Source of the DNA: Paenibacillaceae bacterium
Lineage (GTDB): Bacteria > Bacillota > Bacilli > Paenibacillales > NBRC-103111
Reading direction: 5' to 3'
DNA: 64,000 nt
Assembly: GCA_029256185.1 (NCBI GenBank)
Contig: JAQSYI010000004.1
Location: 62,001-126,000, forward strand
A program made the translations under genes and the position numbers. Shown here piece by piece: positions 17,064 through 41,246 of the stretch (position 1 is the stretch's first letter; every line of letters starts with the position of its first letter). Under the pieces are notes generated by a model. The model did not search any database. It was given only the letters and a program-made list of their open reading frames with translations, and was not told where the DNA came from.

Positions 17064-17370
17064 GTGCCTAGGAAAATAAGGGAAGCGTTTTTCCTTTATT
17101 GTTCTTCCCGTTGGCCGATTTCCTTGAATAAGGGAACGTATTTTCCCTTATTCCAATTTTTGAAGCCCATTTTGGGTGGTTTGGAAGGGGATAAGGGAAA
17201 AAGGAGGGCCTTATTGCCAGGAAATGACCTCCTGTCTGAGCAATAGGGGAAAAACGAGGGCCTTATTTCAATTCAGACCTCGTGTCTGAGCAATAAGAGG
17301 AAAAAGCGGAGTCTTATTTCTATCCAGGCCTTTTTCCTATGCCCTTTTCCTGGGGCCAGGGCGTATTTGC
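17064..17370. repeat. Intergenic repeat family 'AATAAGGGAA', copy 2 (with internal tandem unit)
   Basis: Same sequence order as 8440-8700; internal repeats of CTGTCTGAGCAATAR(G)GGAAAAA..CTTATTT. Confidence 0.85.
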
Positions 17371-17418
17371 AAACCAACGAGGGAAGGTTCATACCGCGAG
17401 CCCGGTGAACAGGGGTGG

Positions 17419-40937: not shown

Positions 40938-40966
40938 TCCGTTTACATTCTGCAAGCAACAGTCAG

Positions 40967-41162
40967 GCTGCCCTCTTCCTAGGGCGTGTCTGCAAACCCG
41001 CTAGAGGGCATCTTTCAGCGCCTTTTCGCCCCATGCTTCGTTACTTTTGCTTGACGTACCCTCCGGTACGCCTTCACAAAAGTGCCTTGCCTGGAACGAA
41101 AATTCACTAAAATCTGCTCCTCTCGGCGTTTGCAAACACGCCCCAATGAGGGCAGCTTTTTC
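40967..41162 (+). terminator. metG terminator arms GCTGCCCTC...GAGGGCAGC-TTTTT, separated by a ~165-bp palindromic element
   Basis: Arms at 40967-40975 and 41148-41156 followed by TTTTTCTTTTT. Confidence 0.6.
40980..41145. mobile_element. Palindromic MITE-like element
   Basis: Terminal inverted arms GGGCGTGTCTGCAAACCCGCTAGAG / CTCTCGGCGTTTGCAAACACGCCC with nested stem ending CGTACC-ctcc-GGTACG; no coding capacity. Confidence 0.55.
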
Positions 41163-41246
41163 TTTTTCCCCCGCTTCTCTCCTGTATTGGCGAATATTTG
41201 CCGTGGCTTCAGCAGAAAATAGCGTAAAAGCAGAGGGGGAATAAAG

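Follow-up and report, generated by a model that had tools for sequence, protein, structure and literature searches.

A palindromic MITE in the loop of the metG terminator of a Paenibacillaceae bacterium

RUP of Streptococcus pneumoniae is a short palindromic MITE that targets TA and whose ends pair in RNA, and its movement in trans has been proposed (PMC3049150, PMC2229807). The ERIC/IRU and Correia/NEMIS elements are likewise short palindromes with TA at their termini, and they are transcribed as long hairpins (PMC2229807). The YPAL (RU-2) elements of Yersinia are palindromic and about 168 bp long, and their target sites cover or border on dyad symmetries (PMC2229807). Here we describe a 162-bp element of this general kind that lies behind metG in a 64,000-nucleotide stretch of DNA (the window, which is the whole stretch analysed) from a Paenibacillaceae bacterium. 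ERIC/IRU and Correia/NEMIS occur in other hosts and are set apart from it by description, with different sequences and sizes. RUP differs in being 107 bp long and AT-rich, whereas YPAL has no TA at its termini, and the duplications that it generates are 3-26 bp long.

The metG terminator and its insert

Homologues of the window's metG, with 59-82% identity, were found in 30 of the 31 genomes searched and in 80 loci with organism names, and the gene name given in an earlier sequence-only reading of this DNA fits these matches. Among metG genes from named organisms, the closest belongs to Paenibacillus sp. (77% identity), and on sequence grounds the source organism is Paenibacillus-like. Downstream of metG the sequence runs AGGCTGCCCTC, TTCC, TA, a near-perfect palindrome of 162 bp, CA, AT, GAGGGCAGCTT and a T-tract that ends at 41167 (Table 1). 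The sequence-only reading had set GCTGCCCTC at 40967-40975 against its exact complement GAGGGCAGC at 41148-41156; the bases are as it described, TTTTTCTTTTT comes next, and its coordinates for both arms and for the palindrome between them are correct. Pairing continues to a length of 11 bp, giving the G+C-rich stem followed by TTTTTCTTTTT that is expected of an intrinsic terminator.

Table 1 Features of the metG locus and related sites. Positions refer to the window unless a locus (L) is named.
Feature	Position	Strand	Basis or remark
metG, methionyl-tRNA synthetase, 685 aa	38880..40937	+	open frame; gene upstream of terminator
Intrinsic terminator 5' arm AGGCTGCCCTC	40965..40975	+	pairs with 41148-41158
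Left copy of duplicated TA, YTAR target (CTAA)	40980..40981	+	sequence
Palindromic non-autonomous element (MITE), 162 bp	40982..41143	+	boundaries from copy alignment
Left terminal inverted repeat GGGCGTGTCTGCAAAC	40982..40997	+	present in every copy, varying between subfamilies
Right terminal inverted repeat, GTTTGCAAACACGCCC on + strand	41128..41143	-	present in every copy, varying between subfamilies
Right copy of duplicated TA, now CA	41144..41145	+	sequence
Terminator 3' arm GAGGGCAGCTT	41148..41158	+	sequence and folding
T-tract TTTTTCTTTTT	41157..41167	+	sequence
Full copies in terminator loops	L108:1503-1667; L164:16984-17146; L144:1357-1516; window copy		arms intact
MITE copies nested in larger repeat	L120:2037-2201; L138:15260-15421; L128:8976-9138; L165:6597-6755; L125:1042-1203; L109:1145
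22-bp remnants	L099:1503; L134:8472; L138:1503; L155:1503; about 20 others		also in G001 and G002

The metG copy of the MITE sits at CTAA, and the CA on its right is the decayed second TA. With the element and one TA removed, the site becomes an 8-nt loop, TTCCTAAT, on a perfect stem of 11 bp, followed by the T-tract, and the 79-nt stretch folds at -22.0 kcal/mol. A palindromic MITE that moved in trans has very probably inserted at CTAA in the 8-nt loop of the metG terminator, where a long hairpin can still form. The insertion would have taken place within TTCCTAAT and duplicated the TA.

Loci in relatives bear on this reconstruction. None of the 109 other metG loci carries the MITE behind metG, and among these loci are two same-genus ones whose surroundings are conserved; only one of the 109 contains it at all, upstream of metG. 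The two same-genus genomes, G001 and G002 (metG identity 81-82%), carry in this position normal terminators whose loops are short and free of the element: AGGGCCGGTTCTC...GAGAGCCGGCCCT and AAGAGCCGTTCTCCC...GGGAGGACGGCTCTTTTT, respectively. These relatives provide the empty site that the sequence-only reading proposed to look for in so far as their metG terminators have short loops and no element; their sequences differ from the window's, so that they are same-locus controls and not base-exact pre-insertion sites. A base-exact empty site of the metG terminator would have an intact CTTCCTAATG loop.

Copies, target site and mobilising enzyme

The sequence-only reading took the palindrome to be a nonautonomous element in the terminator loop, and multiple copies, TA duplications and the element-free loci of relatives support this; neither of the two outcomes that it named as contrary, the insert behind metG in all relatives or a lack of further copies, was observed. 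A search of the bacterium's own genome with the palindrome gave 137 candidates, of which 40 were scored, and all 40 matched. The genome thus holds at least 40 homologues, and the palindrome is not a chance product. A pattern for the ends had 257 genome matches at no more than three mismatches, compared with 19 for a control pattern, and an internal pattern had 58 matches genome-wide, compared with 2 for its control. To these we added a sample of 80 stretches chosen around hits, 1.55 Mb together with the window, and in these targeted stretches we found 74 elements, 55 of them full-length. Measured end to end, the elements form two groups, one of 151-166 bp and another, with 23 cases, of exactly 22 bp; only five have intermediate lengths.

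The copies carry inverted repeats, GGGCGTGTNTGNAAAC, at both ends. For the target-site statistics we used 50 full copies, leaving out five that are nested in another repeat. TA stands on the left in 45 of the 50, on the right in 46 and on both sides in 41; among those with both TAs, the preceding base is Y in 41/41 and the following base is R in 38/41, while YTAR makes up 17% of intergenic TAs. The flanking Y and R, with TA on both sides, indicate that the target of the MITE is YTAR and that its TA is duplicated. The elements are short, occupy many unrelated sites, have terminal inverted repeats, duplicate their target and have insert-free counterparts, as expected of MITEs.

The full MITE is present in 6 of 105 genomes of the family, namely the bacterium's own, two from its genus and three more. 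One replicon with a copy, from Paenibacillus cellulosilyticus, was found in a plasmid collection, and a phage collection yielded no match. A search of a library of papers for the end sequences and for Paenibacillus MITEs returned nothing. The family is apparently a new, undescribed one of the Paenibacillaceae, otherwise ordinary and of a known kind.

Two observations concern other repeats and ends. A second, larger repeat with imperfect inverted ends of its own (around GTAAATTCGTTCC) has spread carrying the MITE inside it (Table 1). In the window, a lone half-match to the MITE end, CAGGGCGTATTTGCAAAC at 17359-17376, lies beside a strong terminator-like hairpin, and no second end was found there.

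The YTAR rule led us to consider the IS5 family as the source of the mobilising enzyme. The target motif of IS5 is YTAR (PMC10359306), and IS427-group elements are about 830-865 bp long and mostly make 2-bp duplications (PMC3281130); a YTAR target with a 2-bp TA duplication is what an IS5/IS427 derivative should show. In G033, a genome of the same family but of another genus, we found an 829-bp IS5-family element (L302:897-1725) with ends similar to those of the MITE, bounded by CTA-GAGTGTGTCTTCAAAC and GTTTGAAGACACGCTC-TAG, whose transposase is in three separate pieces (NF033580, E 6e-15 to 1e-12). The likeness lies in the ends (GAGCGTGTCTTCAAAC / GAGTGTGTCTTCAAAC in the G033 element) and in the target, CTAG with its TA duplicated. 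The MITE differs in its 162-bp length and its lack of a transposase, and the G033 element, the only one with similar ends, belongs to another genus. In the sampled part of the bacterium's own genome no IS5-type transposase had the GGGCGTGT ends of the MITE, and PF13340 had no match in that genome or in either same-genus relative. Since no matching IS5-type element was found at home, we infer the enzyme from the relative: the transposase that moves the MITE is probably of the IS5/IS427 type. Such an enzyme would cut YTAR, leave a 2-bp TA duplication and be supplied in trans, now or in the past.

An origin from IS630/Tc1-mariner was rejected. PF13358 matches, checked in the bacterium's own genome and in four of the five element-bearing relatives, were few, and no IS630-type transposase locus bore the MITE ends at its borders; RUP, by contrast, is tied to IS630-Spn1. 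The own genome does hold IS630-type transposase fragments with other ends, at L092:1082-1822 (the end of contig C83) and in L091.

The sequence-only reading suggested a search for insertions into other hairpin loops, and three more full copies lie in terminator loops (Table 1). The family could actively prefer terminator hairpins or their loops, for instance through a transposase that favours extruded or bent DNA. The counts lean this way: terminator loops hold 4 of the 50 non-nested full copies, compared with 1.1% of intergenic TAs (173 of 15,909; P 0.002) or 1.5% of intergenic YTAR sites (38 of 2,595; P 0.006), and some 22-bp remnants also lie in such loops, such as L309:1493 (recognised by eye, its automatic T-run test being negative) and L150:1495. 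When remnants are counted, borderline ones included, about 7 of 132 sites are in terminator loops (P 0.003). However, against TAs near stop codons (1.9% background) P is only 0.015, hairpins in general are not enriched (4/50 versus 6.4%), and in five other genomes all 35 full copies lie outside terminator loops. The thresholds that define a terminator loop were set after the metG case was known, and survival bias towards harmless insertions would yield an equal excess. We consider an active preference unlikely; the excess is mild and too weak to claim targeting, and we read it as tolerance more than targeting.

Folding of the composite hairpin

The minimum-energy fold of the stretch is the one that the sequence-only reading had proposed, with the terminator stem, a small internal loop and the long hairpin of the element. 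The whole stretch folds at -91.5 kcal/mol, compared with -54.3 +/- 3.9 for dinucleotide shuffles (z -9.5), and the MITE alone folds at -69.7 kcal/mol. With the element present, pair probabilities in the terminator stem are 0.90-1.00 for the inner ten pairs and 0.62 for the outermost. Because the palindromic element has both of its ends within the loop, it would draw the terminator arms together as it folds, and a single long hairpin followed by a U-tract could still form.

The palindrome is preserved across the family. We aligned 38 copies, drawn from seven genomes if the P. cellulosilyticus plasmid record is taken as one, and their column identity averages 86%. When the structure of the window copy is imposed on this alignment, 87.6% of cells pair, and all slid structures score far lower. 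Compensatory changes occur in 60 cells, interior helices included, compared with 22.9 expected from shuffles, and 20 pairs are changed on both sides, compared with 9.8 expected. Folded one at a time, almost all 38 copies pair from end to end, although RNAalifold returned a weak consensus only. Complementarity of the arms is thus maintained farther inward than the terminal repeats of the MITE, in a comparison that controls only partly for the relatedness of the copies.

In equilibrium folds of a growing transcript, the 5' arm of the terminator pairs first with the left end of the element (40981-40989) and switches to the 3' arm once the element's right end has been transcribed. Termination behind metG is likely retained with the element in the loop, as far as these models go. 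Since the 5' arm must first be released from 40981-40989, the insertion may have made termination slower or less efficient. The same early sequestration of the 5' arm would suit a regulatory RNA structure of metG, either a conditional terminator or an RNase III processing site, and RNase III has been suggested to act on double-stranded RNA of Correia/NEMIS elements (PMC2229807). The arrangement at metG is, however, conserved in no relative, and no sequence feature marks the composite as selected, so that we regard a regulatory role as improbable, even more so than active targeting. That the stretch is simply an unusually long native metG terminator or structured 3' RNA, as its folding into one continuous hairpin could suggest, is refuted by the MITE copies elsewhere: its inner 162 bp occur, flanked by TA at both ends, at dozens of unrelated places, and they lie downstream of metG at none of the 109 other loci; nor does the stretch match Rfam.

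Probable 22-bp remnants

The elements of exactly 22 bp are palindromes, GGGCGTGTTTGCAAACACGCCC, between TAs and correspond to both MITE ends fused. These TA-flanked forms are probably deletion scars of the MITE and look like products of slippage. One G002 remnant could be compared with the corresponding site in the bacterium's own genome (L308 against L162), which lacks exactly the 22 bp and one TA, a gap of 24 bp. We compared 40 loci of relatives, and at none of them did one species carry the full form where another carried the 22-bp form. G006 and G033 contain short palindromes but no full MITE, and their palindromes must therefore derive from related elements.

Two end types of the MITE are GTTTGCAAAC and GTTTTCAGAC. 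The centre TTTGCAAA occurs in 16 of 24 remnants, whereas GCAAAC is found at both ends in only 3 of 55 full copies (P 2e-8). In G010, G018 and G073, where no remnants occur, the copies examined have the other type of end. When GTTTGCAAAC stands at both ends it repeats in both orientations, direct and inverted, and slippage would for this reason be expected to yield an exact 22-bp product. We tentatively propose, as a reading that may or may not hold, that the subfamily with GTTTGCAAAC ends trims itself by slippage across the hairpin to a fixed 22-bp palindrome between TAs. The remnants offer a testable case of palindrome-driven deletion that leaves a fixed footprint; if the proposal is true, many apparent short palindromes in these genomes would be footprints of old insertions. 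The metG locus itself provides a natural example of why palindromic elements can be tolerated in regulatory hairpins: folding predicts that the hairpin stays closed when the loop of a terminator takes up a palindrome.
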